Assembly (NCBI GenBank): GCA_963971425.1
Contig: OZ020517.1
Location: forward strand, 622,501-686,500
From: Bryoerythrophyllum caledonicum
Lineage: Eukaryota > Streptophyta > Bryopsida > Pottiales > Pottiaceae
Length of the DNA: 64,000 bases
Reading direction: 5' to 3'
In this document: positions 8,868 through 35,247 of the stretch, piece by piece
How positions within the stretch are numbered: position 1 is the first letter of the stretch
Layout of the letters: every line of letters begins with the position of its first letter
Notes under the pieces: generated by a model
Told to the model about the DNA's origin: nothing
Database searches by the model: none
The model's input: the letters and a program-made list of their open reading frames with translations, nothing else
Program-made: the position numbers and the translations under genes

Positions 8868-8882
8868 ATCACTCTGATTGAG

Positions 8883-11800: not shown

Positions 11801-11834
11801 GTAATTTTGGAAATTTCAGGATTGTGAAGCATAT

Positions 11835-12775: not shown

Positions 12776-15700
12776 CTAAGTCATATAATCGAAATCACCA
12801 TTATCAGATAATGCTACAGAGACTTTAGATTCTGTACTATCTGCATCTGAGGAGCCTTCATCCTCAGACTCAACAGCTTCTAAATCAACATACTCTATAC
12901 CACTTAGCAACAACTTCTTAGGTCTAAATGTACGATATGAACCTTCCGCTAATTCATTGGCAACGTCATTTGCGTATGAAGGGAGTTGCCAGGACTTTGG
13001 AGGGCTTGGAAGAACTTAGGGTCGCAAAAAAAAAGGCGGTGAATAGGGTATCTCAAATTACCGCTTCTGCAAATGCAAATGACAACATGTTCATAAAACT
13101 GTTACATATAAAAGCAAGTCAGAAAAGACAATACTAGTAGTAGAAATTGTAGCTATACTCACTTACTAAACCTTGACTTCTTCACGATCTTTTGAACAAC
13201 AATGACTTCGCTATCTAGATCCTCCGAGATGACAGCGTCTCCTGATTTCACTTCTATGGCAGGAGCAGATCGAACTAGAGGAGCGATCAAGGCTTCAAAA
13301 ATTGCTTTATCAGCCTCTAATGCCGCAATGTGACGGTTCACATTGCGGCAGGCATGAATAGAAGCTCTTGCAAATTAAGAAAACAATGAAGTTAGTTTTC
13401 AATCACCATAAAAATTAATTAATATGAAATGGTCAACAATTACTTATTTAAACAAGAAGAGATGTTAAACGTACCCATAGCTGCAGAGCAGTCTAGAACA
13501 ATATCCCCTGGCGAAGAAGATGCCTGAATGAGCATCTGCATAAGGACGACGGATTTTTCACGAGGACCACGCCATGGGGTGGATCCATCCATTAACTGAT
13601 CCTCCCTTGACACCAAGTTCTGGAGGATGTCATCCCATGCCACATCAACCCCGTGACGGTCTAGTGCAGGGATGTGTTGAAAGCAAAATCTGGAAGCACA
13701 CACCCTTGGAATGCTCCTCACAACTAAGGTTATCCCAAACCTCATGGTCTGCAGATTACAAAAACAGTGAATCAGTTTACTAACAAAAGAAGATAAAAAT
13801 CATTAAGCACATTCCAGCAAATGAAATGGAAGAGAAGGAACACAAACTGGATCTCTAAAACTGCCGTAGCTATCTCAAATTCCGTCTCAGCCAATTCGCT
13901 ACAACCGAATGTAACATCAGCCAGGGCCTAGTCAAATTTCAACGACACGTTCAACGACTAGCATGCACATACACACTATCCAGCCATTGCATGTACATAG
14001 ATTCACATCAGCCATCAGTGGCACATATTATCACAGACTCGAATTTTCACAAGCTCTTTGATTGTCAACTATGGTGTGCTCATACTTAGAAAATCAGTCA
14101 CGGCATTCATATTCCATCACATACTATCACAACAGCACATATTATCACAAATCCACATTATAACTAATCATGGCTACATGCAAATGTGATTACAAATAAT
14201 TAATTGCAGTATATACCGAGTAATGGACATCCGTCTGCACATAGTTTGCATGGCATAGAATATGTGGAATAGCTAACGAGACAAAACATAAGATACATCT
14301 ATCAATCAAATTAGCAATAAGCCATATCATAAAATGAACTCACAGTCAAGGCATGATTAATTGGGGACGTCAGGTGAAGCTTGTTCATCCCCTACCACTC
14401 CTTGCGAACAGAAAATCCATACGTGGAACAGTACCCAAGAATGTTTGACTTCGTAGTCATTCGAAAAGGATGGAACAAAATTATCGCCCCATCGTCTTGG
14501 AGGTGATGGTCTGCGAAATCAAAGATTGTTTGAAACCAATCCTCAGATTCTTTGTTCCAGGCGGGAACAGACGAAGGTGGATTCAAAATTCCTGGGACAG
14601 GAAGGCCCTTTGGAAGATCTCCAAGAATCAAGTCCACACAGGGTACTTCCGCAGCAGATCCCTTACAGCGTCGGGCTTTGATACTTGAGTGCTGCGCATG
14701 AAGAAACAATATTGAGAGCGTGAAAAAACTTAGACAAATCTTTAAAAGCATGCACAAATTTCATGACTTGGGGCTATGAAATATTAATAGAAGAAAATCA
14801 TCAAATGTAATCAAATAAACCACATGTCAACAGTAAGAAACTGGTTAATGACTTAAGGAAGTAGTCAAAAATTCTACCGAACAGAAGCTCATATGTACAA
14901 CAATTTTAAACACCAAGCAATGAAAACTAGTCTCTCAAATATAAAGAGAAAGCCAGGTTTCGTTCTGATAGATAAACAGCTAAAATGGAAACTGTCCAAC
15001 TAAAATGGCTACTGAATTTGACTAAGACTTGACAAAGGAAATTTGATTAGATTTAATACAGCAGAACACAGCCCTGAGGGTAGAACTGGTGGAGGTCCAT
15101 ATTGCAGCAAGTCTATTAACCCGGTTCAGAATCTGATATCGTAAAAAAAAAAAAAAAAAACAGTCCTCAAATCCAAGGTCTCTGTACTGAAACTGAAACT
15201 ACGAGCTACGAATCTGGCACATCTAAAATGTAGTTCAGAACTGATCAATTTGGACTTGCACATGAATTGCTGATTATTATGACTCAGATTCTGAGTATAT
15301 TTCAGAGTTGGTTAGCTTGATTTGAGCATCGCGAGGATCAGTAAGGTCATTGGACTTGACAACTAACAATTTATGCTTCGCATCTTTGAAAATATAATTA
15401 AATGAAATCTTCAACAAAGCAAAGCAGATGTACAGGGTACTACCTTGGAAATGAAGCTCTTTAACTCGTCAAATAAAGGACTCAAGCTGCCCGTGTCGCC
15501 ACCAAGGACTTCCTCTAGTGAGAAGTTTTTAATCCATTCCCCAACTTGGCCATCATGCTCCTCAGCCGATGTGAATACAGGGATTCCTTGGCTTAACTGC
15601 TCGTAGGAGGAATCGCGTTTGGTTCCTCTAGACTGAGTTGGAGCATGAGAACAAGAGTCATAAGTAGGACTAGGCGCAGGTGGGCTCTTACCTTCTGGCT

Positions 15701-18700
15701 CTGGAGGGGGGTTCATCTTCTTTTTCCCCCTCATGTTAGTCTTCTCCAGAGACTTCTGAAGTTTCTCCATCTCTTTCTGAGCCGCTTTATCCTCTGCTTC
15801 CTTCATCCTAAGCGCTTTCTTCCTATCTTCCTCTAGACGTCGCGAGAGGGCCTTTGCCCTCTCGTGCTCGTCTTCTATGCCCTGTAAATCAACCATCTCA
15901 ACACTCCAACTGCCTCCCTTGACTTCCTAAGTTCAGTTTCAAAGGAAGGAGTGAAACTAGGAGCACAGTCGAGGTACCATCCACCTCCTGTGAGATGTGA
16001 GGTTGACCAAGTCCGCTGTTGATTTGCTGAGAACATGCACGTTGTGTTCGACTTGTCAAGCCATGCAGAGAGAAATATGGGGAGATCTTCTTTTGTTATT
16101 GCTCCTTTTGCAAGGAGATCGTACTTGAAATACCTGCAGGTAAAAAACAGCTCATCATTATATACGGTGCAATAGGAATACCTGTCATGTGAAAATCCAA
16201 ATCACTATGCCAAATATAAGAATACTAGTAGATAAAGAAGAAAACTCACCGAAAGAGGACTCTTCGCACAATCAAGTTAGTCCCACTGAAACCCACAAAT
16301 TCGAGAGTTTTGTTAAAAGCCTCCTGCCCTCTGAAGAAGGTAGGGAACGCATTGTCCCATAGTTTCATTCTACAGTCCTTGATGTATGCAGCCAAGGTCA
16401 AGGGCTCGCTCGGTATTTCAAAGTTGATAGCTAGTCTGTCTTGGCGCAAAGTGTCTTCAAAGAGAATGGATGCCTGATCGGAAATCTGTCGAAACAGATT
16501 GAGCAAGGCCGAGTTCAAGACTGAGAACATAATCGACATAATCATTGGAATCAGAGTGAGCAAGACCGGGATCAGATTGAGAACAAAACCGACTTATTGA
16601 ATGAATTCATAGTGAGCAAGACCAAAAAGATGACCATGATCAAGATCGAGAGCAAGACAGTATTACTGTAACTGCTCAAATCAAGTCATGTAGAACTAAA
16701 GGGTACATAGAGGGTTATGTACTCACTCCGGCCCAAAAACATGCCCTGGCTAGGAATGCATGTAATTTCTCCTCGTTGGTAGGCTTGGTTGGCAGTTTGC
16801 GGGCTTCACGTGTTGAGGCAGAGGAATTGAAATACTCCAACAACTTGATTTTAAATGCCGGTGATGCTTTTGCAGTAGCGATCAACTGCAATTTCTCTAA
16901 GTTGAGCTCCGGTGTAATTGAATTTAGGGTATAGTGACGCTCAATCTGTGAACCGTAGAGCAATATATTAGAATCATGAAATATATTTAATTACTTGAAG
17001 GATGAAAAATGGGCCTTATAGTAGTGGACATACCTCCCGAAGCCATCCCTCGGTCAACTCTGAGTTTGCCACACAAACTAGTTTTGACATTTTCTTATGA
17101 AGTGCCTCGGCTCTCTTTGAAGCAGCAAACTTCGTTGCGGCTGCTTTTTCAGCAGCCGACACCTCTCCATCCGTTTGCTCAACAAGTTGACGAACACCCT
17201 CATCTGCCGCGAGTCCGAGTTCGTGCTGCAAAGGGATTTCCTTAGTTAGTTTGTCAACAGACAACTGCAACATATAAGGAATTCTGATTACGATAGTAAA
17301 CATAGAGAAAAAAAGTATTTGTAGCCAATATCAGAAGCCTATTCGAATCACATTCCCTGTATTCACAATGAACAAGATCAATGCATCGGAGAACATTTAA
17401 ATAAACAAATAATACCAGCAATAATATGTAGTAGTCAAAACTATCATGCAAAGTACCTAAGTGAGCCATACCATACGGACTTGGATCTCTAGAATCAGAT
17501 GTCGCAGAATAACAGTTCTTTGAGTAATCGAATTAGCAAGCATCAACATCAGATCACGAAGCATCATTGTCGGACTCAAATATGAAGTGTCAGAAAATAA
17601 CGACATCGAATACGAGCAATAAAATGTTCAAATGGATAAGAACGAGGAGATTCGCTCAGAGCTGAATTTTCGATCGCCAAAGGTATGGTATGGACTAGAG
17701 ACAGAACTTATAGAATTTGGCTAAACTAAGAACAACACAAGCGATGCTACGAAGACCTTTTCACATGAGCCGAGTAGCTAGTCCGAGATGCGAAACCTCA
17801 GTGATCCGTTAGCCATCAGTGGTTGTGAGCATAGTTAACCTGGTCTGTCAGAAAAAGAAAATAACCCGGCTCGGCTTACGGATCCAGCTTCTAGGTACTG
17901 CTGCAATTCTAGCTGCTGCTCTTGAACAGGGGAGACAAGAATATCGTTAAACTATGTCTCGGTACCGAGAGTCACTTTGAACTCTCTAAGCAGTGTACAG
18001 ATGCGGTCTACAGAATGATCATGATTTTAAACACACTCTCAGGTACTGTATTCCCGCCAATGTAGCTCCCTTAGACTCACAGACTTGTAGATATCAATGA
18101 CGACTCATCTAAGATTCTGTGGTTGAATTCAGGTGTGGGAGAAGAGGACTACAAGAATTGTGTAAAGAAGACTGTAACAACTGAGAAAACTGAGAGAGAG
18201 TCGGAAACTGATTTGATATTGTGAGTGGCCAAAGTGGGCCCTCACTTTTTTTTCTTTGTTTTTTTCGAGTTTTTGATAGTATTGACCCAATTTTAGTTAA
18301 AGTAGTAGTCAATCCATCTACTAGAGTCAAATTCCTAGAGTAATAAACTTAGTGCCATGATGTCACACTACGGTTCGTATTTTTCCTCTTCCCTACTAAT
18401 ATGCTTGAAAGTGTAGTGGAAGTGGAGTGGGAATGAAGAGAAAGATAAAAAAGGGAAAAAAAGGTCCTTGGAAAATGACTAAAAATTGAGAAATGGGACA
18501 AAAATTATGGAAAAAATTGAGAGAGTGTCTCCTAGCAGGTAGAAGTAGTGGTAAAATTTCTAGAATTTTCCGAGTTGAATTACTATTTAATTCTAGGGGT
18601 TGACTAGTTAGTCGACGGGTTGACCACTCGGAAAAAATACTTAATGAACTCCAAAAATGCTAGGAAAATTTGTGTAGACTAATTAGGGTGCTAGGAGTCC

Positions 18701-20774
18701 AGCTATGTGGTTAGTTTTTGAAGTTATAAGTAAATTGCAAATCATCAGTAGATAGTAGTAGATCTAGGGTAATGGTCGTTAAAAGATCAAAAGGAAAAGA
18801 AAAAAAGGGGAAGAAAAGAAAAGAAGGTGGTTGGGTGTGCTTCCCCATGCACATGCCACATGACAATTCTTGCCACCATGGAATTAATTTTAGGGAGGCT
18901 TGTCAGGAGCAAAGCGGCGAGTTAATGCTAGTAATAAACTAAAAACATGCAAAAACGGCTGTAAGTGGCCAATCCTGCACTTCTGTGAGAGGTCATGGGC
19001 TGCCTCATTTAAACTAAGCCAGTCTTGTCGGGGAAGAAAAACGAGAAAGACCAAAAGAAAAAGAAAAAAAAAAGAAAAAAAGGAGAACCAGCCAGGCTGA
19101 GTCGCTGGCGAGAGAGCTGGGGTCACGGGATTTTCGGGGGGCCGTTTTTGGAGCGAGGAGGAGCTCCTGCGAGCAGGAGAGAGGGCTGGAGCTCTCGTTT
19201 TTTGCTAGGGGTTGGGTTTGTTTTGTTTGGTGGTTGGTGGTGTGTGCGCCCTGGGCGCGAGGGAGAGCTGGCCTCTCTGTTTTTTTTTTCTTTCTTGGAA
19301 GAGCTCTGTGGGGAGAGGCGCGCTCTGAGCGCGTGAAGGAGGTCTCGTGTTCGGGGAGCTGGAGGAGGAGCTCCGGCGCGAGAGAAGAGCTGGACTCTTC
19401 TGTTTTTTTTCTTCTTCGTTTTTCCTGTGCGAGGCTCCTGTGCGAGGAGAGTCTCTCGTCTTTGTGGTGAGCGCACCGGCTGCGCGCGAGGAGGGTCTGC
19501 GCCTGCCTGCGCGAGGATGTCTCGTGTTCGGGGAGCTGGAGGGTGAGCTCCGGCGCGAGAGAAGAGCTGGACTCTTCTGTTTTTGTGTGTGTGCGCGGGG
19601 ATCGGAGCTGGGGCTTGCACGAGCTGGGCTCTGTTCCGGAAGGCTGCTCGGCGAGGGGCGCACCTGTGCGCGCAAGGGTCTGTGATTGTGATCACGAGGT
19701 CTGGCTCTGAGCTCCGGCGCGAGAGAAGAGCTGGACTCTTCTGTTTTTGTGTATGTGCGCGGGGATCGGAGCTGGGGCTTGCACGAGCTGGGCTCTGTTC
19801 CGGAAGGCTGCTCGGCGAGGGGCGCACCTGTGCGCGCAAGGGTCCGTGATTGTGATCACGAGGTCTGGCTCTGAGCACGGGAGAGAGAGCCGTGTTTTCT
19901 TTTTTTTTGTGGTTTTGAGAGAGCGCGCTGGAGTGCTCCTGCGGTGGGAGCTTCGGTGTGGAGGCGCTGTTGAAGGTCGGCGTTGGTGATCGTGGAGCCG
20001 TGTGTGCGCGCGGTGGTGTGAAGGTGCCGCGAGCTGAGAAGACTCGAGCTGGAGGATCCAGGCGAGAAGAGGCTGCGGCGCTCGGACCAGGGAGTATTTC
20101 CTGGGTGAAGCTACCTTCCCTAATTCCTACCTGCATGCGGTCGTTGCGGTTTCCTTCTTGTGTTGATTGAATTTGTGGGATCTCTAAACTTGTGCGGAAG
20201 CGCTGGAGGATTTTTTTTGACATTAGGGTTCCAAAACTTGGTGATGATTGCTCGCTGGCCGATGCAAGAATGCTGATGCTTGTAAGTTGGTGCTTGCTGG
20301 AATCGTTGAGAATTTGGTGAATGGTGTTCCCAATTGAATGATGTGTGAGCTCATGAGGGAGCTGTGAATACTTGTTGTGGTTGTTGGGTCGCCGCTGTCC
20401 GTCTGTATGTGGCAGTCCTCAAGGTCTGGTTGGACATTCTGAGGAGTCCATCGTCAAGAGCACGAAAAACTAATAAGATTAGAAGTTGAAAACGCTCAAT
20501 TCGGAGTTAATCCTAGGAAGTTAAGATGTTTTAAAAAAAAAAAAAACAAAACCTGGGACTCACAGGGACTGTCTGCTGCGACTGCTGGTGGAGGCCGGTA
20601 TCAATCTCAAATTAGGTATTTAGTGTTTTAACCAAGTTGGAATTGAGCTGGTGATCATTTTAAGAGGAAATTTTTTGGTATTCGGAGTCCCGAATCAATA
20701 GATAAAGGCTGCCGAAGTTGCTGCTCCAACCAGGGTCTGGATCAGGCCTGATCAGCTGACCTAAACTAAAAAAA

Positions 20775-20808
<34 letters not shown>

Positions 20809-23800
20809 CAACAAAAAATTAAAATAAATAAATAAATAAAGAATAAGTAATAATAATCATAATAACTAATAGCCATAATAATTAGATAACAATTAATTAA
20901 TTAACTATTCATACCTATCTAATTTATCCAGAGTTAAGCCTTTAAATACCAAGGAGGGTTAATCGAGTTCACTTAACTGGATTAAGATAATAGTACTATT
21001 GATTTCTAAATATATAAATGGATATGCCAAGATCCAAATCCAGTAGAAATTAGGGTTTACAGTTAAGCATAAGGAATGGTAAGTGGTGTAACAATAGGAC
21101 CTCGTAGGTTTAAAAATGGATTCTCTTAGGGGGTTTATTTTTGGGCTTACATTTGGTGCGTCTGCCGGGAGGAGCTTTTGTTTGGTTCATTGCTTGGAAG
21201 GTGTTTGTCTTACTGCTGGATTGCTAAATTTAGGGTTTCTAGGGTTCTGAATGGTCTATTTCTGACCTAAACCGTGAATGGAGTGGTTTTTGCCACATAT
21301 GGGGAGTGGAGTGCGCTATTGCTTGAGGTAAGTTGCTGAACTACTTTTGTGCATATATCCTTGTATGAAGTGTTTTGTCCAAGTTGTAATGGAGGTGGGG
21401 AGTTAGAAGGGTGTGTGGAATTCCCGACCTCCTAACACAAGCACATTGTGTTAGGCGGACCACCTTCTAACTCTTGTGCTTTGGTTGAGTTAGGGGGCTT
21501 AGGGGTGAAAGGTTGAGGCCCTCCCACGATTGCTTGAAAGTAATCAGTGAGCTTCTAAGCCAAAGAGGGAAGGTGCATGTGCCCGGGCATGGGACAAGGG
21601 CGCCCTTCCCTTCCCCCCCGAACTTGATCTACCACCAAGGTAAGAGCAACTTGCGTGCTATCAATAGCCTTGGTTATTGAATGGGATGAATGTTGCATAC
21701 ATGGAATGATATGCATGTTGAAGGGGTCGTGAGGAAGGAGCACGGCATAAGGTGAGTACACGAACCTTCCTCACTACACCAAATCCTACACTAGGCACTT
21801 AGATTCGCTTAGGGATCGAACAGGGATGGTGAAATTGCAGCCAGGTACGTTCTCCCCTTCTTAATGAACAAATTGTGATGAACCAATGAAGGATTTTTCG
21901 TACATGTTGGTGTCGTTTCTCTTAAGTTGGTGATGCCATCCCTTGGAGAGAATTTGGGGATACCTTGATACCGAGGAGAAACCTCCAAGTAGGTGGTCAG
22001 CCCAACTAAGAGTCTGTATCGTATGGGGCATAGTGGGTGTACCTCGTCCGGAGGTTAGCCCCACATGTAACCTTCTGTTTTGTTTACTTCCCAGCATGGG
22101 GGAGTTTGGGAGAAACTTGGAATCATTGTAAGTCAATTATTGGTGTTTACGAAATGTCTTCACATAGGTCTAGAGAACTAAGAACGGCAACTTAATCGTT
22201 AGATGAGCCCTGTGACTCGATCTGGAAGATGTTATAGACCGCTTCCCCTTCCCCTAATTTCTACTACTCCAACTTCATTTCCCAATCCTGAGACATTAGA
22301 AGGAGGTCCTAGTACAAGAACCAACTCGGGAGGCCCAAAAGACCGTATAACCGTTGAGGAATCAAGCTTTAGGTCTTCCTCCTCTCCTCACTCTTCCCCT
22401 CTTCCTAGTCCTGGTGACATGGAAGATCCAATTGTCAACCCACCCCTAAACCCCTTGGTTCAACCAAGGGGTTTGCCTATTGTAGTTCCTGAAGGGCTTC
22501 AAGCTGCCCCTATGCCCCCAAATCTTCCTAGTTTCAAGGGAACTAGGGATGAGGATCCCTCGATGCATGTGGAGCGGTTTATAGAGTTATTGACTACGTG
22601 TTTGATAACCGACAACCGTTACTACTTGGTGTGGTTTCCAACCACACTCAAGGAATCGGCTTACGAATGGTACCGCAATCATGCGGCATCCACCTTCCGT
22701 GATTGGGATGGCCTCATGAGGTCATTCTTGGAACAATACAGACCCGAAGTAGGCCAGAGTGCAGCCTTGACAGCCTTGGCAAGCTTTAGACAAGGGAAGG
22801 ATGAGGATATTTCATCCTACATCCGTAGGTTTGAACAAGTTGTCACCCGGTTCGTGGGTGATTTGCTCACGGATGATACCTTGAGACACTTTTTCCTTCA
22901 GGGGTTTTATCTAGAGAAAACGATACGGGAAATCCTCCAGACAAGGCCCACCACCTTAGAGGAAGCTAAGGAGGCAGCTAGGACCGTGGCAGCGGTGGCA
23001 ACAGAACACGAGAAACTATGGAGGAAGGAGAATGAGAGCATTCCTAGCTTTATTCCCATCCATGCCCGGGAGAAGTCAGACTCAGTTGAACCTCCACCTG
23101 GCCCAACAGTGTATTCTCCACCTGTGGTGAATACTATTCCTCTTAATGTCAGGCCCCCCGTTCCTCTACCCGCTCTTACATATGGACCCACTTGGCGTCA
23201 CGAGATGAAGAAGGAGATCCACGACGCTCAGCAAGGGTTCCAAGACCAACTCCAACAACAATTGAGGGCAATGACAGATCAGATGGCTCTTCTACTCAGG
23301 AACCAGAACCCTAATGCCCCACCTCCTCAGATAGAGTCAGGTAGGCATTCTTCTGGTATGTGGTGCACTTCATGCGGCGAGAATGGTCACACCATGCAGT
23401 TTTGTACCACCTTCCCACACCATTCAAACGTCTATCAACCCCCACACCGGAATCAACCACCTAACCGTGGTCAAGGTCTGAGGTCCCAGCCTCGTTGGGA
23501 GATCTGCCAATCCTGTGGAAGAAGACATCCACCTGGGAGTTGTTGGTTGGAAAATGGGGTAGTGTGTGGGAATTGCGGTGGTAATCATCCCACAATTAGA
23601 TGTAGGGAGAAGGACAAAGTCATTCCTATGAGGCCAATGAGAGGGAATTTTGCCCAACAAGCCATGGATAACCAGAGAGGGGCTCGAAACTCTTCGAATG
23701 ACAATAGTCTCCATCCTCCCAACATGTACTATGATTATAATAATCATCGTCAAAACCACCAACCTCCCCAAGGCTTACAAACCCAACACGGTTTTATGCC

Positions 23801-26800
23801 TTTTGGCCAAAACCAGGCACCTAACCAAGATGCCCGATTTGCATCTCCTTCTTCTTCATCTTCCTCTACCACCGTCACATTGACAGAACTCGGGTCTCAA
23901 GGAGCTCCTCAGAGTTCTACCTCTTCTCAATCCCATTTTGTATCGCATGAACCTGTCATTCCACATCAAGTGGCTCACCTTTCACTTCCCGTAAATGCGG
24001 TATTGACACGAGCCCAAAAGGCCAACCAACCCTTCGTAGCTCAGGAATCAGATGCTAGCTTCGAGGATTCACCACACTTATCAGAACTTAATGATGTAGT
24101 TCATGAAGCCTTGAAGTCCACAAAGGAGGCCAACCAGAAGGTGCCTCCGGTAAATCCGTTGATGTTAGATTCCACCCCTTCTGAAGGAGGTGAAAAACCC
24201 CAGAATCCCCACACACCCGAGCCAACCTGAGAGGGTCCAACAATTCCCATTCAAGAAATGGGGATTAAAAACCCTTCATCCACCCCCACGTTTAGACCGT
24301 ATGATCTTTGGGAGGACTTGAATAGGTTGAATGCCAACATTACCATTGCCCAACTCATCCACTTGGCTCCCTTGGTACGAAAGGAATTGAAGAAGAAGAT
24401 TCCCCTAGCCAAAAGGGTAAAGGTCAAGGCCAATTTAGCTGCTAGAATGAGCTCTTCTAGGAAGCCTTCAAAAAAAGCATTTGAGGTTCGTGCGGTAGAA
24501 ATTGAGGCCACTATAGTGGATAAGGTGTTGCCTAAAGTATTGGTGGATGGTGGTAGTGGTGTGAACATCATGCCTCTTCACACCATGGAACAATTAGGGC
24601 TAGAGATCACAGAGCCCTCACCTTATGTGATCAACATGGCCAACCAGATTCCAGAAGCACCAATAGGCCAAATTTCTGGGTGTAAGATGAACACAGGAGG
24701 GGAGGACTACACGATCACCTTCCAAGTGCTTCGAATGCACTCGAACAAAAATTCCTTTCCCTTGCTTCTAGGGAGACCGTGGTTGAGGGCAGCCAATGCT
24801 AAGGTAGATTGGAGTGGCGAAAAACCTCACATCACCTATGGTGTGGGGTCGAATCTAACCAAGGTTTATATTCAACCTAGCTTCCCTAAGACCTTAGGAT
24901 CTTCTAGCTCATCATCGGAGGATGAAGACCACGTGCCCCGCGGTGCTAGGAAGACAATCAAGGGGGTCAAGTTCGCGCTTCCAAAAGTAACAAAAACCAC
25001 CACTCCTCCCTCATTGAGTTGCTTGGGGCCTAGTCTATACGAATGGGAGGATGATGGAGAATTCTCTACTTGGTTGGCTGAGCACCCGCACACTGAGTCT
25101 GACCGATCCATGGATACGTTTTTCATGGAAGAACTTAGTGGTGATCCTCTCAAGGACATTGACTTAGCCATTCTCGTAGATGACCTACGTTACGAGGATG
25201 TTTGTGGTGTCACCTTAGATGGCACACAATTGTCCAATGTAGATCCTATCTTGGAGGAAGAAGCCCTCATTTCTCCGTTGCACTTCAAATCCACTTCATC
25301 AGGAATACAAGTGGGAAGTGATCTACCCATCTATCCACCAATCCCCCATGACTGGTACAAGGTGACCACCCAAGCCACTCCGTTTTCATTAGTCTATGGT
25401 GTAGAGGCTGTACTCCCCATAGAGTTTGAAGTGCCATCACTTCGAATAGCGATAGACACTCGATTAACCAAGCAGTCCCTGATCCATCGATTGGAACGGT
25501 TGGAGAAATTGGATGAGGATCGTAGACTGAGCGCACAACACATTGAGGTTGTCCAGAGGCGCCGGAAAATTGCGTTTGATAAACGCCACAAGAAGCGGAC
25601 ATTGTCGCCAGGGATGTTGGTTTTGCTTCAAGATGCGAGAAGGCTAGAATTCCCTGGGAAGTTTGATGCGTTGTGGTTGGGCCCCTATCTCGTTACCAAG
25701 GTGTTTCCCAACAACTCGGTCCAACTCGAAACCCTGAATGGTGAATCATTTCCAACGCGCACGGCTGGGAGTCGTTGCAAGGAATACCGGACATGATAGA
25801 GTGGATTCACTATCACTAGCCCACCTCACTTCGTGACAATTGGCCTCACAACGGGGAGGACATGACTCTTCCGATTCAACTAAGTGCCTTTTGACCACTA
25901 GTTGCAGCCGGTCATCTCTTCTCCATGGGTCAACCATACTAGTTTCATCACTACACTAGAGACAAGTGTTTTCCTTTCTCCCAAATTCTTATCAAAAATA
26001 TAGTTTTCTCTCCTTGCTTTCCTTACCTTCCAAAGAGATTGGAACTTCTATCTCTCTGTAGTCCAAGTTCACTCCGATGAAGGCGGAAGGCGGTTTTGAA
26101 ATCTTTTTTGGCTGTAGATTCAACCTGGGTCCGTCCAGGGCGAATGGGTTTAACTCAAAAATTGGGACGTGCATCCATTCTGCTAATCTTTCAATTCTTT
26201 CTAGTCGAATGCCGTCTCTATTTTCCCTATTTTTCTCTCATTTTTTCCCCCTTCTCTATTGAAATTTCCTAGCTTTTCTTCAATCCCATCACTTTTGTCT
26301 AACTTCCTAGTTTTCTTCCAAATTCCATAATTGTCTTTCTACATCTCGTTATTTTTTCTCATTACCGTGTGCCGTAGTGAGCAAGAGGTCTAGGTCCACT
26401 CTCCTCTCACGAGTCGGCCCAGATGGTCGCCATGTGTGAGTGGCCAAAGTGGGCCCTCACTCTTTTTTCTTTGTTTTTTTCGAGTTTTTGATAGTATTGA
26501 CCCAATTTTAGTTAAAGTAGTAGTCAATCCATCTACTAGAGTCAAATTCCTAGAGTAATAAACTTAGTGCCATGATGTCACACTACGGTTCGTATTTTTC
26601 CTCTTCCCTACTAATATGCTTGAAAGTGTAGTGGAAGTGGAGTGGGAATGAAGAGAAAGATAAAAAAGGGAAAAAAAGGTCCTTGGAAAATGACTAAAAA
26701 TTGAGAAATGGGACAAAAATTATGGAAAAAATTGAGAGAGTGTCTCCTAGCAGGTAGAAGTAGTGGTAAAATTTCTAGAATTTTCCGAGTTGAATTACTA

Positions 26801-29800
26801 TTTAATTCTAGGGGTTGACTAGTTAGTCGACGGGTTGACCACTCGGAAAAAATACTTAATGAACTCCAAAAATGCTAGGAAAATTTGTGTAGACTAATTA
26901 GGGTGCTAGGAGTCCAGCTATGTGTTTAGTTTTTGAAGTTATAAGTAAATTGCAAATCATCAGTAGATAGTAGTAGATCTAGGGTAATGGTCGTTAAAAG
27001 ATCAAAAGGAAAAGAAAAAAAGGGGAAGAAAAGAAAAGAAGGTGGTTGGGTGTGCTTCCCCATGCACATGCCACATGACAATTCTTGCCACCATGGAATT
27101 AATTTTAGGGAGGCTTGTCAGGAGCAAAGCGGCGAGTTAATGCTAGTAATAAACTAAAAACATGCAAAAATGGCTGTAAGTGGCCAATCCTGCACTTCTG
27201 TGAGAGGTCATGGGCTGCCTCATTTAAACTAAGCCAGTCTTGTCGGGGAAGAAAAACGAGAAAGACCAAAAGAAAAAGAAAAAAAAAAGAAAAAAAGGAG
27301 AACCAGCCAGGCTGAGTCGCTGGCGAGAGAGCTGGGGTCACGGGATTTTCGGGGGGCCGTTTTTGGAGCGAGGAGGAGCTCCTGCGAGCAGGAGAGAGGG
27401 CTGGAGCTCTCGTTTTTTGCTAGGGGTTGGGTTTGTTTTGTTTGGTGGTTGGTGGTGTGTGCGCCCTGGGCGCGAGGGAGAGCTGGCCTCTCTGTTTTTT
27501 TTTTCTTTCTTGGAAGAGCTCTGTGGGGAGAGGCGCGCTCTGAGCGCGTGAAGGAGGTCTCGTGTTCGGGGAGCTGGAGGAGGAGCTCCGGCGCGAGAGA
27601 AGAGCTGGACTCTTCTGTTTTTTTTCTTCTTCGTTTTTCCTGTGCGAGGCTCCTGTGCGAGGAGAGTCTCTCGTCTTTGTGGTGAGCGCACCGGCTGCGC
27701 GCGAGGAGGGTCTGCGCCTGCCTGCGCGAGGATGTCTCGTGTTCGGGGAGCTGGAGGGTGAGCTCCGGCGCGAGAGAAGAGCTGGACTCTTCTGTTTTTG
27801 TGTGTGTGCGCGGGGATCGGAGCTGGGGCTTGCACGAGCTGGGCTCTGTTCCGGAAGGCTGCTCGGCGAGGGGCGCACCTGTGCGCGCAAGGGTCCGTGA
27901 TTGTGATCACGAGGTCTAGCTCTGAGCACGGGAGAGAGAGCCGTGTTTTCTTTTTTTTTTGTGGTTTTGAGAGAGCGCGCTGGAGTGCTCCTGCGGTGGG
28001 AGCTTCGGTGTGGAGGCGCTGTTGAAGGTCGGCGTTGGTGATCGTGGAGCCGTGTGTGCGCGCGGTGGTGTGAAGGTGCCGCGAGCTGAGAAGACTCGAG
28101 CTGGAGGATCCAGGCGAGAAGAGGCTGCGGCGCTCGGACCAGGGAGTATTTCCTGGGTGAAGCTACCTTCCCTAATTCCTACCTGCATGCGGTCGTTGCG
28201 GTTTCCTTCTTGTGTTGATTGAATTTGTGGGATCTCTAAACTTGTGCGGAAGCGCTGGAGGATTTTTTTTGACATTAGGGTTCCAAAACTTGGTGATGAT
28301 TGCTCGCTGGCCGATGCAAGAATGCTGATGCTTGTAAGTTGGTGCTTGCTGGAATCGTTGAGAATTTGGTGAATGGTGTTCCCAATTGAATGATGTGTGA
28401 GCTCATGAGGGAGCTGTGAATACTTGTTGTGGTTGTTGGGTCGCCGCTGTCCGTCTGTATGTGGCAGTCCTCAAGGTCTGGTTGGACATTCTGAGGAGTC
28501 CATCGTCAAGAGCACGAAAAACTAATAAGATTAGAAGTTGAAAACGCTCAATTCGGAGTTAATCCTAGGAAGTTAAGATGTTTTAAAAAAAAAAAAAACA
28601 AAACCTGGGACTCACAGGGACTGTCTGCTGCGACTGCTGGTGGAGGCCGGTATCAATCTCAAATTAGGTATTTAGTGTTTTAACCAAGTTGGAATTGAGC
28701 TGGTGATCATTTTAAGAGGAAATTTTTTGGTATTCGGAGTCCCGAATCAATAGATAAAGGCTGCCGAAGTTGCTGCTCCAACCAGGGTCTGGATCAGGCC
28801 TGATCAGCTGACCTAAACTAAAAAAAATAAAATAAAATAATAATAATAATAATAATAAAACAACAAAAAATTAAAATAAATAAATAAATAAAGAATAAGT
28901 AATAATAATCATAATAACTAATAGCCATAATAATTAGATAACAATTAATTAATTAACTATTCATACCTATCTAATTTATCCAGAGTTAAGCCTTTAAATA
29001 CCAAGGAGGGTTAATCGAGTTCACTTAACTGGATTAAGATAATAGTACTATTGATTTCTAAATATATAAATGGATATGCCAAGATCCAAATCCAGTAGAA
29101 ATTAGGGTTTACAGTTAAGCATAAGGAATGGTAAGTGGTGTAACAATAGGACCTCGTAGGTTTAAAAATGGATTCTCTTAGGGGGTTTATTTTTGGGCTT
29201 ACAGATATCAAGCAATTACTTCAGACAATCTCACGATGGATTGGGTGATCAGATGGCTGACGCAGCCTTGAAGTTGCAAGTCCAAATTATGATCGTTCTA
29301 TCTACTCACAATACCGCACCCGCTTCGGTACTAGAACTATTCTGAATCATCTGATCGTCGTAGAAGTGTGACTCTATCTATTCACCTTGGCGAAGGCCTG
29401 GTTTACGTATAATAAAATCCATGATTGTATCATAGCCCATTTAGATCCGAGATTACTGAGATTGTGTGTCTCGGTACCGATAGTGACTTGCACCTGTGAA
29501 GAAGTGGCACATGCAAATGTATCCTAGTAGTTACCTAGAGTGACGTACAAGTGTGTCCTAGCAATTACCTCGAGTCTGATGAAGGTCTACGGATTAGCAG
29601 AAAGATTCTGAATCGAAACTCGATCCGATTACCTGCAGCGTTTGTACAGTGATATGTACAAACAACTGTCATCGACTATCCCTGTCCGTAACCTGCAAGC
29701 AGACCTTTTCCGTTCTACTGCTACAACGTTCATGAGGTTCCAGTATAGTCGAACAACCTATCAATAAGCAAACCAGTTCCCACAAGAGAATCTCTGAACA

Positions 29801-32800
29801 CGCACCCTGGCTAAGCCCCGTGCAACCGGAATATATTAGCCTAGACCTCAAATCTGATCTAGAACAGGTCTTGACAAAGACTTATAGACAAAGACTTTAC
29901 CCGCAGACTCCAATATGTGAAATTAAATTTTGGATAAAAAATGCGGGAATAAGTCATTCAGAGTGACTACTTTAGAGACCATACCTGAAAGATGAAGTTC
30001 GTAAATACATGTAGGTTCAACGAATACCAAGTCTTCTTCGCATTTTGAGATTTCTTGCACCTTTTAATTTCCGCTGGCGTCAATATGTCTTGGTACTGTT
30101 CAAGCGGCATAAGTCCATACTTCTGCACCCTGAATAGAGTGTGAACTGTGTTGGTCTTGACGTGAGAGTCTTCAGTATGTCTAAAATTTAACAATCAAAG
30201 AGTAATGATTAGCACATCATAATGAATGTGGATTTAAAGTTCTTTGAATAGATAAAAGCATTTCATAATGGAGAATACTTACTTGTTGATGTTATGCATA
30301 ACTTGCATAACAACACCAATTTTTCCCTTAGTGTCAAGGAGGATGCTATCCACCAAACAATGCCAGGTCTCATCTGTTCTGTGAAGTCTTTGAATGTGAT
30401 TCAACCAAGCCTGCCGCCTATGGTTCCCGTCACAGACGAAGAACATCAAATTCTTTAAACTGGCTAACTCCGGAACGGACAGAATAAAGGAGTTGAATTC
30501 TTCATTCTTGGCAATCCAAATGGGATCCCATGTTGCCTTATCAGCTTCAGTCACCTCATGTGTTTTGCCTTCTTCATCTGTTGTTGTGACATAGAATACT
30601 GAGGCACCCTCTCTATACCCATGTACAAACTCCCGCTCCAATTTTGCAAGATCACTTGAGAGAGTCGGCCTTACCATAGGCATGGCCAGCATTCTGCATA
30701 GGGGAATATTGAACCTAGATGAACTCAGGGGTTGGACTCTCAGTCGAGAAATCGTGGCAACAGAATTCAATTTCTGTCGGGTCCTGATATCATCTTCATT
30801 CCCTTCATATGCATCTCTATCTCCAAGCCCGTCTTCATCCTCATCCAGACCCTCTTCAGAATTGTCAAGTGAAACCGGAGTCGCCTCCAGTGGTGAAACC
30901 GGAGTCGCTTCCAGTGATGATACAGCAAGAGCATCCTCTTTAGCAGTTCTCTTAGCCTGCAAATTCGGAGTACAAGTTTGTTAAGGAGACAGGAGGCACC
31001 TGCAATTTCTATGATCAGATCAACTATACAGTGAATAGGGCATACCAATGCATTGAAATCTTATTGAAATGCATTAACGTAATGTATATCGGGACCGAAA
31101 CCTAGAAAACCTCCCAACAAATTTTTCATAAAGCCACCTTTGCAAGCTAATCACTAAAAGATAGTAGCTGAAACCTGCGCCTAACTCGAAGTGAAGCTCA
31201 TTAAAAAATCTTCCTCGCACTGATTCATCGTGGTTTTTGTATCGGTTTCGAGACAATCAAATATTCTGACCTAGTCGAATAAAACTGAACCTGTGTTTCT
31301 GAGTTAATGCTGGAATCCAATGCATGCTTATCTCAGTCCAACTACTTCTTATCAGCAACTACTTCTTAAGGCATTTTCTATTCATCCCTTTATGTATATC
31401 GAGACCGAGACCCACATTAACTCACAACAAAACATTTCAAATTTATCTCAGGACGCTAATTGCTTACCTCCTAACAACTAAACAAAACTCAGAGCGTACC
31501 TCTAAATGTAGCTATTAAAGTTTTGCCTTGCTCACTGAATTATCGATTTGTTAGTCTCGGTCCCGAGACAGTCAAAGCGCAACCTTACACCAGTTCAGAC
31601 CTACTCAAATAATAACAACTAAGACGAATACAGTGCATGCGGCATTCCAATACATTCACATTTCAGTGAGATGCATTAAAATAATCTTATCACCAACAAA
31701 TTTTGAATGCATATAACATCAATGCATATATGTATTAGGACGAGACCCACAGAAACTCAAATCAATACATTTGAAATCATCCTATTAATGCTAATCAGTT
31801 ACCATCATACATATAAACGTAACTCTGAACAATGTATGTAATGCTGCTCTTGGTACTGGATTCTTTCTTCACAGAATCAGAAAATGTCAGTCTCGGTCCC
31901 GAGATATCAAAATGCAGATCTAATCGAACCGATACAGGCGTCCATCATATCATCATGAACTTTCGTATATAACACTTTAAGTACCATAATTATTCACGAA
32001 CATCATGTTCGGAGCCGAGACACTCAAATTCGGATTTTAATAAAAGTCATTACATATATCCACGAACTAAATGTGTGTTGCTATCCGTGGGCAATACATA
32101 TGTAGTCGATGATTCCAAACTTGGATTTCCGGCAAGTATGTCTCGGTCCCGAGACAAATAGTTCTACTGCATCGCCCTCATTTCCAATACACGGCAGAGT
32201 TGACAGTACTCGGTACTTGGGATTCTCAAATGTCTCTTTCGGCACCGATTGGGACGAACAAGTATTTTCACACTAACTCATTGTTTATACCATTTCATCG
32301 TGCAGGGGGCTATGTTCTATCGAGAAGCAATCCGTTCTGTTGAGAGATCAGCTTCGTCACCTGGAGATATGGAGAACATTTCCATTATCTCTGCACAGAA
32401 GTTTGCTCTCATTCCTACTTATATTGATTCCTTAACAGGTCATCTTCCAAAATTTTCCATCTGTTCGTCATATTGGATCTGTCTAATCTGTACCTAAAGA
32501 ATGCGCTTTGTAGATCTTCGATTTACTCACACTTGCACAACGACCTTAGATGCCGAACTGGGCCGGTCGTTTGCCAAAGACCCTTTCATCTCTAAATATC
32601 ACCCCAATCTCTCACCCCAAATTGACACCACTATTCTCGATTTAGAATTCCGAAGCACACTAGACTTAAGGTGTCTGTGATTTCTAGGTTCCGAACCCCA
32701 AAGATTAGTTCTCGAATTTAACAGAAAGAAATGTCCTAAATGACTCTGTCGGCACCGATATGGACGGAGAAGCTGCAAATCCAGTACAGACCTTCACATT

Positions 32801-33859
32801 CTAACCCGATCATCTCATTCTGTACACACCTTAAGCAATCAACTATAGCCCGTGAGCCTTCAGAAGTCTCTCTCGGTGCTGAGACTCACAATCTGAACAA
32901 TTCCAGGTCACAAAGTCGACTGCGATGTTCCTACAACTTTCTCGAAAATTCCATCTCATCTAAACAAAAATTTGATCCAGGAAAGTCCTCTATCGCAAAT
33001 CAAGTCAACAGCCTTGGGGATCTGTGAACCCTTAACCAAGATACACATTCAACGAACGCCGCAGGTTTATACGAATGATCCACACGAGATTTCTGGGTGT
33101 GACTTAATACCTCTTCCAGTAAGTGTTGCTCCTGATTATCCATGCTGCCTTCGTCCAGATCAACAACACCAGGGTCGCGATCGAGTTCTCCTACGCTCTA
33201 TTGAGTCTGCGGATATCGTTGTCCTGTGCTCATTCGCTATGTAGCTGACCTAAGAAACTGTAAGCACCGCAAAGCAATCATCATATATGACCTAAAAGCA
33301 GTCTAAAATGGAAAGTACTTTTTGCAAACCTGCTGCTCACTATGATGTGATGTTGAGGCACTCGAGGTTGCCCCATGTTGAGGTTGTATCTGACTCAGTC
33401 CCCGTTCCAGATGCCGAAGCAATATCCAAGTCACTTTCGAACACCATTGATATAGGAGCCGATAACATTGCCAACACGACAAGAACAGTGAATGGGTCTA
33501 AACCAATTCAAAATATCCTAGATAGATGCAAACATTTCGAACGCACAATAAAGAACATCTTTAGGAATAAAAAAACACAACACCTCACTGCCCACATTGT
33601 CAACTGGGTTGTCTTCCTCTGAAACTGGAAATAAAACGATGGGAGCTACTGCTGAAACATCAAACGTCTTATCCCCTTTGGATCCTCTTCCAGTACCCCT
33701 CGAAATATTACCCCCTCGTCTACCCATTGTTGGCCGCAAGTTGTACGGTGTCCCTAAGCTCTCTCTTGATTCTAGCCTTTGCCTTCTCTCGATACGCCTC
33801 TGTTTTTCTATAGTCCTCCTGACTTCTCTATCTGCTCTCGCTCTCGATCTAGTGATCAT
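12776..33859 (-). CDS. ParB-like / pseudo-methyltransferase protein of E2 (spliced, interrupted by retrotransposon B)
   Basis: The exon series on the minus strand, from 5' to 3', is as follows: a possible basic first exon 33,584-33,859 (MITRSRARADREVRR); 30,283-30,956 ParB-like domain; 29,985-30,180; then, across nested retrotransposon B, about 17,034-17,226; 16,726-16,950; 16,251-16,490; 15,900-16,133; 15,445-15,896; 14,380-14,697 (motif IV region); 13,478-13,747 (motif X/I); 13,172-13,364 (motif II); and a last acidic exon of about 12,776-13,010 (ends DNGDFDYMT). Borders are GT/AG and phases agree where checked. The same exon order recurs in E3 at roughly 30% identity, strong evidence of coding. 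Motif IV reads LILGDLPKG instead of DPPY and motif I reads GDIVLDCSAAMG, so the domain looks non-catalytic. An in-frame TAG at 14,392-14,394 and a frame change near 15.93 kb suggest this copy is decayed. Confidence 0.7.
13172..14697 (-). other. Methyltransferase-like domain of the E2 gene
   Basis: Three exons spell a beta-class DNA methyltransferase layout. They contain a motif IV equivalent with a following FDFADHHLQDDGAIILF strand-helix; then MDGSTPWRGPREKSVVLM (the motif X/HPTEKP equivalent) and SPGDIVLDCSAAMGASIHAC (motif I); then RNVNRHIAALEADKAIFEAL (motif II with its acidic residue). Compared with the usual VLDPFxGSGTT and DPPY, both catalytic and SAM-binding signatures are eroded in a pattern shared with E3. 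Confidence 0.7.
18220..21151 (+). repeat. 5' LTR of retrotransposon B, with internal 164-bp duplication
   Basis: 2,932 bp, TG...CA. The region 19.1-20.2 kb is strongly G-rich (GAGCTGG, GCGCGAG) and yields long spurious Arg/Pro/Ser ORFs on the other strand. Units 19,545-19,708 and 19,709-19,872 are a tandem duplication starting at GAGCTCCGGCGCGAG; the 3' LTR has only one. An (AAT)n microsatellite lies at 20,775-20,806. Confidence 0.93.
21153..21171 (+). other. Primer-binding site, tRNA-Gly type
   Basis: TGGTGCGTCTGCCGGGA starts two bases after the 5' LTR. Its complement TCCCGGCAGACGCA plus CCA equals, from memory, the 3' end of plant tRNA-Gly(UCC). About 1 kb of untranslated leader follows up to gag, with no ORF. 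Confidence 0.7.
22203..24230 (+). CDS. gag: Gag of retrotransposon B
   Basis: 675 residues starting MSPVTRSGRCYRPLPLP. Residues about 105-270 form the retrotransposon gag domain (FKGTRDEDPSMHVERF, KESAYEWYRNHA, FLEQYRPEVG, SFRQGKDEDISSYIRRF). Three CCHC zinc knuckles follow: CTSCGENGHTMQFC, CQSCGRRHPPGSC and CGNCGGNHPTIRC. A Pro/Ser/Gln-rich tail links to pol. It ends in TGA at 24,228-24,230; the next frame continues in the same phase, implying stop-codon readthrough or a late-acquired stop. The coding sequence is intact, so Gag could still be made and could package this RNA. Confidence 0.92.
   Translation: MSPVTRSGRCYRPLPLPLISTTPTSFPNPETLEGGPSTRTNSGGPKDRITVEESSFRSSSSPHSSPLPSPGDMEDPIVNPPLNPLVQPRGLPIVVPEGLQAAPMPPNLPSFKGTRDEDPSMHVERFIELLTTCLITDNRYYLVWFPTTLKESAYEWYRNHAASTFRDWDGLMRSFLEQYRPEVGQSAALTALASFRQGKDEDISSYIRRFEQVVTRFVGDLLTDDTLRHFFLQGFYLEKTIREILQTRPTTLEEAKEAARTVAAVATEHEKLWRKENESIPSFIPIHAREKSDSVEPPPGPTVYSPPVVNTIPLNVRPPVPLPALTYGPTWRHEMKKEIHDAQQGFQDQLQQQLRAMTDQMALLLRNQNPNAPPPQIESGRHSSGMWCTSCGENGHTMQFCTTFPHHSNVYQPPHRNQPPNRGQGLRSQPRWEICQSCGRRHPPGSCWLENGVVCGNCGGNHPTIRCREKDKVIPMRPMRGNFAQQAMDNQRGARNSSNDNSLHPPNMYYDYNNHRQNHQPPQGLQTQHGFMPFGQNQAPNQDARFASPSSSSSSTTVTLTELGSQGAPQSSTSSQSHFVSHEPVIPHQVAHLSLPVNAVLTRAQKANQPFVAQESDASFEDSPHLSELNDVVHEALKSTKEANQKVPPVNPLMLDSTPSEGGEKPQNPHTPEPT
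24258..25796 (+). CDS. pol: Protease fused to integrase C-terminus by an internal pol deletion
   Basis: 512 residues in the gag frame. The N-terminal half has the aspartic protease: VLVDGGSGVNIMP (DGGS is the Tat/Athila-style active site), then FPLLLGRPWL. After a linker of acidic/Ser-rich sequence the frame jumps near 25,355-25,370 straight to TPFSLVYGVEAVLPIEFE, the end of the gypsy integrase core, and then the integrase C-terminal domain (FDKRHKKRTLSPGMLVLL, LWLGPYLVTKVF). RT, RNase H and most of integrase are absent, yet the frame stays open across the junction. About 640 bases of non-coding sequence follow before the 3' LTR. Confidence 0.88.
   Translation: MGIKNPSSTPTFRPYDLWEDLNRLNANITIAQLIHLAPLVRKELKKKIPLAKRVKVKANLAARMSSSRKPSKKAFEVRAVEIEATIVDKVLPKVLVDGGSGVNIMPLHTMEQLGLEITEPSPYVINMANQIPEAPIGQISGCKMNTGGEDYTITFQVLRMHSNKNSFPLLLGRPWLRAANAKVDWSGEKPHITYGVGSNLTKVYIQPSFPKTLGSSSSSSEDEDHVPRGARKTIKGVKFALPKVTKTTTPPSLSCLGPSLYEWEDDGEFSTWLAEHPHTESDRSMDTFFMEELSGDPLKDIDLAILVDDLRYEDVCGVTLDGTQLSNVDPILEEEALISPLHFKSTSSGIQVGSDLPIYPPIPHDWYKVTTQATPFSLVYGVEAVLPIEFEVPSLRIAIDTRLTKQSLIHRLERLEKLDEDRRLSAQHIEVVQRRRKIAFDKRHKKRTLSPGMLVLLQDARRLEFPGKFDALWLGPYLVTKVFPNNSVQLETLNGESFPTRTAGSRCKEYRT
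26435..29203 (+). repeat. 3' LTR of retrotransposon B
   Basis: 2,769 bp, matching the 5' LTR except for a few substitutions, the single instead of double 164-bp unit and a different microsatellite at 28,822-28,857. It is followed by the target duplication GATAT. Confidence 0.93.
30283..30956 (-). other. ParB-like domain exon of the E2 gene
   Basis: After a highly acidic lead (EEGLDEDEDGLGDRDAYEG) comes a conserved block: IPLCRMLAMPMVRP, then LEREFVHGYREG, then MFFVCDGNHRRQAW, ending VMHNIN. The order (an Arg/Pro turn, an L-x3-F helix with G, a DGNHRxxA loop, and a terminal Asn) mirrors the ParB/Srx N-terminal fold, where the loop reads GERRxRA. E3 has the equivalent WDGNHRYNAWW. Assignment is by motif order, not by a search; Srx or another GNHR-loop fold is the main alternative. 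Confidence 0.6.
31085..32885. repeat. E2 palindrome array (16-nt GTCTCGGTCCCGAGAC)
   Basis: Perfect copies lie at 31,554-31,569 and 32,140-32,155. Near-perfect copies lie at 31,890-31,905 and, outside the main cluster, at 17,956-17,971 and 29,468-29,483 (centre TA). Degenerate copies lie near 31,085, 31,239, 31,397, 32,006, 32,236, 32,746 and 32,870. The cluster is in the intron or upstream region between the first basic exon and the ParB-like exon. Size and symmetry resemble bacterial parS, but the sequence differs. The rest of 31.0-33.5 kb has no supported exon. Confidence 0.8.
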
Positions 33860-35247
33860 CTCTCACAATATTGAAGCAAAGAGATCCTATTTATCATTGT
33901 CAAGTCTATCACAATTATCATCAATGCGCGATCATTATGTTCACATTCTCTTAGAACAATTTAGATAAATCTACAGTTTCTTAAATTATTTGAGAAAGGT
34001 TGTTATAGTATATCCTCACTCAAATAATTCACTATCAAAGCCGGCGCTCAAATATAATCTTGATAATCGTTTACTGCCATGTCAGATATTTATGGCAATA
34101 TAGTTTAGACTAGTATTATAGTACATTCTTATCCTTGCTAAACAGGTTGTCCAGAGAAGACAAAAATATGTATTGACTATTAATTGATATTACCAAGGTT
34201 GCCAAAGATTAGGACATTGGTGACCACCCTAGGCGTATATTATTATCGAGTACTTTTACCCATACCTTCCTCTCCTCTCCATCTCCTGTTCCATTTGAAA
34301 CTGACTCAAGTCATCCATGTCTTGCTCATACAGGATCCCCTAGGTCATCTCAAATTTACTGCACGTTACCCATATATGGATCTCATGGACCTTATGTTTG
34401 TATCGGAGTTTCAGACGACAACAGCATGGAGATTGCCAACCCAACTGACTGCGCAGTATCACCGGCAGACGTGGTTCACTGTCCAGATCAACATACTCCA
34501 TCGTTGCAGGCGGATGAAACAACCCGGATATATGTCATGTCTACTCTCAGGAGTCCTGTCTCCTCTATAGTAGGGGATATAAAACCAGGCACGTACTCAA
34601 GATCTCAATTAAGGAGTACCCCACGTCCCAAAGATTTGAAACTCGGCTCAGCAGGATGCACTGCAGTTCATAGTTCAAATATTGACCATTGTCATTACAA
34701 TGACGGTGACAATAATGCCAAAGGTTCCTATAAGCGTGTTCGTCGTTAATGAGAATATAGCATTCGTACTTTCTGATGTATGGAATTTAATATTTCAGAG
34801 CTATTATCATGCTCTCCACATTATTCGTGGAAGCCGTCATTCGTATGACCTGATTTGCTAATCTATATTTTAACCATCAATGTTTAGATTGTATGCCTAT
34901 ACTTGGACTCTACTATTTGGAAAGAGTTATACATAACAGCTTTTGAGTGTGTATGAATGAACCACTTCTAAAGCAATCTTTATATTTTCAGTTTGTTTAA
35001 GACGGATCACGATTTCTTACATATCTCGGACTTACATCTAAATTTGTTCTTTGGCAGCTGACTTTCAGCTTAATCCGCAGGACTCTCTATTAACTTCTTA
35101 AATTCCTCTTATTGTGACATATAATAACCACTTTACACTGTAATTCCTTTCCTGTTATATATTCATGCCATTTCAATGTTCAGTGTACTTGCTGTGTCAA
35201 ACTGCTGTTCAAGTCCTTCACTAGATGCGAATTGAATTCAGTGGTTC
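33860..35247. other. Intergenic region between divergent E2 genes
   Basis: No supported gene. It separates the minus-strand ParB-like gene from the + strand transposase and presumably contains both promoters. Short frames here show no family features. Confidence 0.4.

Follow-up and report, generated by a model that had tools for sequence, protein, structure and literature searches.

A gene that combines a ParB domain with an N4/N6-methyltransferase lies opposite the transposase in the Ectocarpus transposon Sola1-1, and the accessible part of that report also cites green and red algal precedents (PMC12477816). In VANDAL elements, as far as the accessible part of the source describes them, related VANC proteins differ in their targets, on which they act by way of clusters of short motifs in introns and upstream regions, and DNA methylation is removed (PMC5735166). 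ParB-type folds fused to methyltransferases are frequent in phages, and such folds bind CTP, ATP or GTP (PMC12704722, accessible text). Here we describe E2, a complete DNA transposon with terminal inverted repeats, a 10-bp target duplication and a divergent transposase-like gene, at positions 11740-39639 of a 64,000-nucleotide stretch of contig OZ020517.1 (G000:C4:622501-686500, hereafter the window). E2 carries a ParB-like/methyltransferase-like gene and, beside it, an array of short palindromes, and a paralogue, E3, lies in the same window. Iyer 2011 and Petroll 2025 are reportedly the sources for the green and red algal transposon genes of this kind.

Like Sola1-1, E2 is a large DNA transposon in which one gene opposite the transposase unites ParB-like and DNA-methyltransferase domains; the sequence-only reading had taken this architecture to be undescribed, a view that the accessible part of the Sola1-1 report does not support (PMC12477816). 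The two differ in three respects: Sola1-1 is a Sola-1 type transposon; its methyltransferase is predicted to make N4-methylcytosine (4mC) or N6-methyladenine (6mA), whereas the E2 family has lost the catalytic motif; and no palindrome array is mentioned for Sola1-1 in the accessible part of its description (PMC12477816). With VANC, a protein encoded by Mutator-like elements of Arabidopsis whose introns and upstream regions are dense with short motifs (PMC5735166, accessible part), the E2 family shares motif arrays that lie in non-coding parts of its own element and differ between relatives. That part of the source does not liken VANC to ParB or to methyltransferases; the VANC motif, YAGTATTAY, is nine bases long and arrayed in a single orientation; and binding and demethylation by VANC have been demonstrated (PMC5735166), whereas for the E2 family both would be predictions. 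Phage fusions of ParB with N6/N4-methyltransferases (L009, L010, L011, L017 and L019) have the same domain order and a homologous methyltransferase part; unlike the E2 gene they are single frames that keep DPPY, and the ParB parts could not be related by profile. Bacterial parS is a short palindrome similar in size and symmetry to the E2 sites, and in both cases short palindromes cluster beside the gene, but no ParA was met in the scanned frames of E2 and no helix-turn-helix family in its exons 2-6. A search of titles and abstract starts in the open-licence literature found no report of cognate palindrome arrays with ParB transposon genes, and the new part seems to be the palindromes and not the two-domain transposon gene. 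The reading that we favour, with a probability of roughly 0.55, is that the protein recognises its own element through lineage-specific palindromes, in a VANC-like mode of self-recognition or anti-silencing.

The palindrome cluster pointed out by the sequence-only reading was recovered in the window: with up to three mismatches, GTCTCGGTCCCGAGAC gave 14 strand-matches at nine places, against a mean of 0.23 and a largest value of 3 in shuffled sequences. Two copies only are exact (31554 and 32140), the others being variants. The E2 array spans 31086..32885, with sites at 31086, 31239, 31396, 31554, 31890, 32006, 32140, 32746 and 32870, and the mismatch search placed two outlying E2-type palindromes in the large intron of the gene (17956..17971 and 29468..29483), which flank a nested retrotransposon, one on each side. 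E3 contains an array of another type, GCCTCGTNNACGAGGC, over 59206..62410 (sites 59206, 59357, 59486, 59873, 60727, 60994, 61194, 61554, 61672 and 62395). When the two central bases were ignored and at most two mismatches were allowed in the 14 arm positions, the E2 type was found at seven places, all inside E2, and the E3 type at eight sites, all inside E3, with no site of either type elsewhere in the window, the nested retrotransposon included; because each consensus derives from the element concerned, its presence there is built in, which does not apply to absence elsewhere or to clustering. Up to four mismatches gave 15 E2 sites (Markov resamples: mean 2.8, largest 5) and 10 E3 sites (mean 1.4, largest 3). 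Arm identity between sites was 0.78 in E2 and 0.84 in E3, figures inflated by the choice of sites for similarity, versus 0.28-0.33 for the 40-bp flanks; the ten bases beside E3 sites reached 0.40-0.42, a value raised because some E3 sites share a duplicated unit. Tandem Repeats Finder returned nothing for the E2 array.

Searches of the whole genome (437 Mb) located GTCTCGGTCCCGAGAC exactly at 56 places and its reversed control at none, and a second type, CGTCGGTACCGACG, at 49 places, each listed on both strands, compared with 12 for its control. Fifty-two of the 56 E2 palindromes lie near a listed ParB-like exon, 39 of them 0-4 kb upstream and 13 at most 3 kb downstream, and four lie elsewhere. 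For CGTCGGTACCGACG the corresponding count is 40 of 49, all 40 upstream, with nine elsewhere. The intervals around ParB-like exons cover at most 0.24% of the genome, and the co-location counts are lower bounds, as the exon list comprises 150 scored of 1779 candidates. Among 20 stretches fetched around exact palindromes, 19 contain a ParB-like exon and none contains an E3-type site. The ParB-like copies lie on chromosome-size contigs.

Twenty-three genes were then drawn from the 150 by protein identity alone (78% to 44%), with the palindromes disregarded. In a blind search for recurrent palindromes in about 3.2 kb of upstream sequence, 18 of the 23 beat the best of 20 shuffles, and so did E2 and E3. 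In seven control stretches of the window, between 2 and 5 palindrome copies were counted, and one of these stretches, overlapping the 3' end of E3, exceeded its own 15 shuffles by one copy. The core TCGGNNCCGA was present at least once in all 23 genes and at least three times in 20, versus 0 of 10 control stretches. The outer two palindrome bases vary by lineage (TC, TA, AG, CG or CC, with CCTCGT in E3). On a maximum-likelihood tree of the ParB-like exon, built from E2, E3 and the 21 loci that could be assigned a class (L053 and L055, without a class, were dropped), the six palindrome classes required five changes, which is the minimum; shuffled labels required 12.9 on average, and 0 of 200 shuffles were as low. 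The CG and CC clades are well supported; E3, which sits on a long branch of unsure placement represented by the window copy alone, groups with the CC clade. In a Mantel test on 18 loci, 39 of 5000 permutations were as high as the observed value. Within a palindrome the two arms change together, most sites of the array follow suit, and the changes are in step with the protein lineage. The link between gene and palindromes is stronger than a reader of the window could have known, since lineages differ in palindromes that are placed beside the gene genome-wide.

Three loci show individual features. L030 (G000:C3:29433000-29442900) has an exact E2 palindrome and transposase matches with no ParB-like exon within 10 kb, and is perhaps a shortened, dependent copy. 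At 4628-5108 of L025 (G000:C1:12107600-12117500), five exact E2 palindromes form a tandem array with a spacing of exactly 120 bp, reminiscent of VANC targets. Upstream of the ParB-like exon of L049 (G000:C624:28490-32260), a unit roughly 115 bp long recurs in about 24 copies, with 23 TCTCGG-type and 13 CGAGAG-type sites in all.

The E2 gene was modelled on the minus strand. Exon 1 of the modelled part (30283..30956) encodes the ParB-like domain with DGNHRRQA, matches E3 at 40% (1e-44) and has 260 relatives. It is followed by modelled exons 2 (29985..30180, with an E3 match), 3 (17034..17225), 4 (16727..16945), 5 (16250..16485) and 6 (15444..16133, with a change of frame inside). Exon 7 (14344..14691; 46 relatives) holds the methyltransferase motif IV region, GDLPKGLPVPG, and one in-frame TAG; modelled exon 8 (13475..13748) holds the motif I region, VLDCSAAMG; and exon 9 of the modelled part (13166..13364), aligned with E3, holds the motif II region. 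A candidate first coding exon at 33556..33859, minus strand, was inferred from a frame open from an ATG at 33859; it has no family match, and E3 gives no confirmation. The E3 gene (55135..58843, minus strand) likewise has nine modelled exons, with the ParB-like exon at 58266-58843 and the methyltransferase exons at 55135-56089. The nine exons of the two genes pair with equal or similar sizes, exons 1 to 6 have the same intron phases, and the exon 7-8 join as modelled in E2 is crossed by a spliced protein of Ceratodon purpureus (P0160). As this moss is the source of the only named relative met, the host of the window, which is eukaryotic, is likely to be a moss. The sequence-only reading had referred to versions E1 and E3: of these, E3 proved to be a paralogue that has a palindrome type to itself, but a third copy was not seen by blastp among all window frames of at least 25 aa.

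Across the ParB-like exon and exons 7-8, E2 and E3 are 62-67% identical at codon position 2 and 31-37% at position 3; the corresponding values are 57% and 38% for exon 2, and 55% and 24% for exon 5. Because second codon positions are more identical than third, the comparison indicates that the protein was under purifying selection between E2 and E3. Both genes have since decayed: E2 has the frame change in exon 6 and the in-frame TAG in exon 7, and E3 has three in-frame stops and an exon 8 without a clean acceptor. An altered genetic code was considered for these stops and is unlikely, as each gene ends in TAG and its internal stops resemble decay. Many copies elsewhere in the genome list no stop within the ParB-like exon. 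Shared contig sizes of 5474 for P0051 (ParB-like) and P0123 (methyltransferase), 5094 for P0104 (ParB-like) and P0158 (methyltransferase), and 18151 for P0145 (methyltransferase) and P0167 (transposase) suggest that each pair sits on the same contig.

The ParB-like block of E2 has the motif order VRP...DLAKLE...DGNHRRQA...MHNIN. Of the 120 listed among 260 relatives found, 119 keep DGNHR, a Box-II-like motif with a conserved Arg. The motifs of the block are present as first proposed, but the sequence statistics behind it are weak. PHROG 1033, "ParB-like partition protein", gave E 0.014 for E2, and 14 of 45 family members reached it at E<=1, while DUF1015 was reached by four of 45, at best with 0.061; such values are near chance level because the unrelated Phage_tube_C reaches 0.0035 in two of 45. 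The block had no Pfam match, and exons 2-6 gave chance-level Pfam matches only. A PDB sequence search with the ParB-like part yielded no ParB match, tblastn of the relative P0038 against phages yielded nothing credible, and no relative was confirmed in the prokaryote genome and viral collections. We nevertheless consider it likely that exon 1 encodes a ParB-like domain, mainly because the same two-domain gene is called ParB-like in an algal transposon.

The spliced methyltransferase domain of E2 matches PF01555 at 2.2e-8 (34.7 bits versus a curated cut-off of 26.7), in a test in which two of eight rows matched and the six others were mostly exon 7 alone. The METHYLTRANSFERASE part matched PHROG DNA methyltransferases down to 3.1e-8, and tblastn reached annotated phage methylases at 1e-6 and, as its best place, an unannotated phage record at 2e-8. 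Against phage methyltransferases, hhalign gave 2.2e-6 over 167 columns from motif IV to motif II, and motif IV precedes motif I in both the exon order and the collinear profile match, as in the beta class. A PDB sequence search with this part gave no methyltransferase match. By homology, the C-terminal part of the E2 gene is a genuine beta-class domain, as its layout had led the sequence-only reading to propose.

The left copy of the target-site duplication, ATCTCCAAGC (11730..11739), is identical over 10 bp to the right copy (39640..39649), and both lie directly outside the inverted repeats. The left terminal inverted repeat (11740..11809) matches 39570-39634 in inverted orientation over 65 bp at 81.5%, the right repeat extending over 39570..39639. 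Both contain tandem 7-bp GAGCGGT units (11757-11791 and 39589-39620), possibly transposase sites. The extent first given, 12776-33859, lies inside E2 but is too short; E2 runs from 11740 to 39639 and includes an 11-kb nested long terminal repeat (LTR) retrotransposon. This insertion (18220..29203, plus strand), which is not part of the system, lies in an intron of the E2 gene, encodes a gag domain, is flanked on both sides by the 5-bp duplication GATAT, and is very young (LTRs 99.6% identical, 2759/2770). The left terminal inverted repeat of E3 (53844..53900) is 83% identical to the E2 repeat over 42 bp; no right end was seen in the window, and it probably lies outside. E3 is inserted in a gag-pol-like open frame (53218-53862), apparently of another retroelement.

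The transposase-like open frame (35236..37485, plus strand, 749 aa) is divergent from the ParB-like gene and has 132 relatives, across which D545, D594, C623 and H626 are nearly invariant. CxxH is a transposase signature of the Mutator-like group. The window frame had no Pfam match, and among 34 relatives a single one reached Transposase_mut, with an E-value of 0.034, a level that chance hits to unrelated families also attained in that scan. Mutator-like elements typically have target duplications of 8-11 bp and commonly have terminal inverted repeats of hundreds of bp, according to the accessible part of PMC6446971; the exact 10-bp duplication of E2 falls in this range, and its inverted repeats, at 65 bp, are shorter than is usual in the group. 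The E2 family is probably Mutator-like, as had been proposed: duplication and terminal repeats fit, but the transposase-like frame lacks a confident Pfam match.

Adjoining E2 is a Ty3-type retroelement (4948-11689, minus strand) with a C5 cytosine methyltransferase domain (PF00145, 5.1e-11), its frames separated by single stops. Gypsy elements bearing DNA methyltransferases are known from the charophyte Klebsormidium (PMC5890265, accessible part), and a land-plant case would be of interest if the host is a moss.

On the self-recognition reading, the gene product would be a recognition protein dedicated to one family of large elements that are probably Mutator-like. A symmetric dimer would bind the palindromes, clustered in 5' introns or the leader of the very same element, through its ParB-like part or through an adjoining DNA-binding part. 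The protein and its sites would have diverged jointly, so that every lineage reads its own tag, and the methyltransferase-like domain, its catalytic motif lost, would probably serve as a DNA contact or scaffold. The likeliest effect would be that the element is kept from silencing, or its expression set, in the manner of VANC proteins in VANDAL elements. That both arms and most sites of an array vary jointly with the protein lineage would be simply explained if the element encoded a symmetric DNA reader.

Several points weigh against this reading. Since a single element carries both gene and palindromes, common descent by itself correlates them and explains part of the association, and near-copies cluster any label; with 12 non-redundant loci the Mantel test fell short of significance (555 of 5000 permutations gave a value as high). 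The tree labels were assigned after the counts had been seen, with two loci dropped; the TC class does not form a single clade (three changes), and support for the AG clade is weak (66/32). In the blind search, five of the 23 loci did not beat their shuffles, the winners at L055, L061 and L063 were not of the TCGG type (that of L055 being AT-rich), and E3 lacks the TCGGNNCCGA core. The assignment to the ParB fold draws on motifs: comparison of 45 members with 12 phage ParB domains by hhalign gave E 0.45, with 27 of 60 column shuffles as good, and removal of long inserts brought no gain, 27 of 60 shuffles still being as high. The transposase of the same element could be the palindrome binder. 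Because both copies are broken, the system in this window is a relic.

A tentative scenario, which we regard as rather unlikely in its full form, is that a captured bacterial or phage ParB-methyltransferase gave rise to rapidly diversifying, separate protein-palindrome pairs, in which the dead methyltransferase would act as a DNA-binding scaffold and a ParB-type nucleotide clamp, loaded at lineage-specific palindromes, would spread along the element and exclude the silencing machinery; a parS-ParB system would then serve as epigenetic self-defence.

The palindromes might alternatively serve transposition, as sites at which the transposase or an accessory factor builds a transposition complex or represses the transposase promoter. 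Internal transposase sites are common in DNA transposons, the E2 array has the ParB-like exon on one side and the divergent transposase-like frame on the other, and the L030 palindrome accompanies transposase matches in a 10-kb stretch free of a ParB-like exon. The sites are nevertheless found upstream of the ParB-like exon and in the downstream intron and not near both element ends, and 19 of the 20 fetched palindrome stretches carry that exon, so that we consider such a role unlikely.

Self-marking, in which the protein would bind the palindromes and methylate adenine or N4-cytosine of its own element, a role put forward for the ParB-methyltransferase transposons of algae, accords with the PF01555 membership and with Sola1-1, which has the same two domains in the same gene position. 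Canonical motif IV, [DNS]PP[YFW], is, however, found in none of 46 relatives; in the 41 readable by pattern it is D-x-P-E or D-x-P-K (one DITE), with DLPK in E2 and DIPE in E3. Motif I is also degenerate in both copies (DCSAAMG in E2, DWNASTG in E3). With this catalytic motif lacking throughout the 46 relatives, the case for active methylation is weakened; the methyltransferase-like domain is probably not an active methylase, and self-marking is accordingly improbable.

It is very unlikely that the palindromes are a by-product, either old tandem-repeat debris or leader RNA hairpins carried along with the gene with no protein that binds them. Within the E2 array, short segments match one another as diverged duplicates (71-89% self-matches over 28-96 bp), and linkage by itself yields correlation; against this, the arms are conserved beside nearly random 40-bp flanks, within an array the majority of sites share one class and have changed symmetrically, and palindromes are enriched beside ParB-like exons genome-wide. 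Least probable is partition by a ParB-parS clamp that would hold or spread on element DNA as in bacterial plasmids, for segregation or extrachromosomal maintenance: palindromes do cluster beside the gene, and the Box-II-like Arg needed for nucleotide binding (PMC12704722, accessible text) is kept in nearly all listed relatives, but no ParA-like family turned up in the frames scanned (no other ParA search of the element was made), element copies lie on chromosome-size contigs, and the motif-based ParB fold compares with phage profiles at chance.

If the palindromes are read by the protein encoded beside them, the ParB-methyltransferase genes of algal transposons would gain a concrete target, cognate palindromes, that is testable by binding. 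A single genome would then provide a natural library of candidate protein-palindrome pairs, with the half-sites TCTCGG, TATCGG, AGTCGG, CGTCGG, CCTCGG and CCTCGT, useful for learning how palindrome specificity is read. Should the VANC-like reading be true, anti-silencing through clustered tags in an element's own sequence would have arisen more than once, with unrelated proteins.

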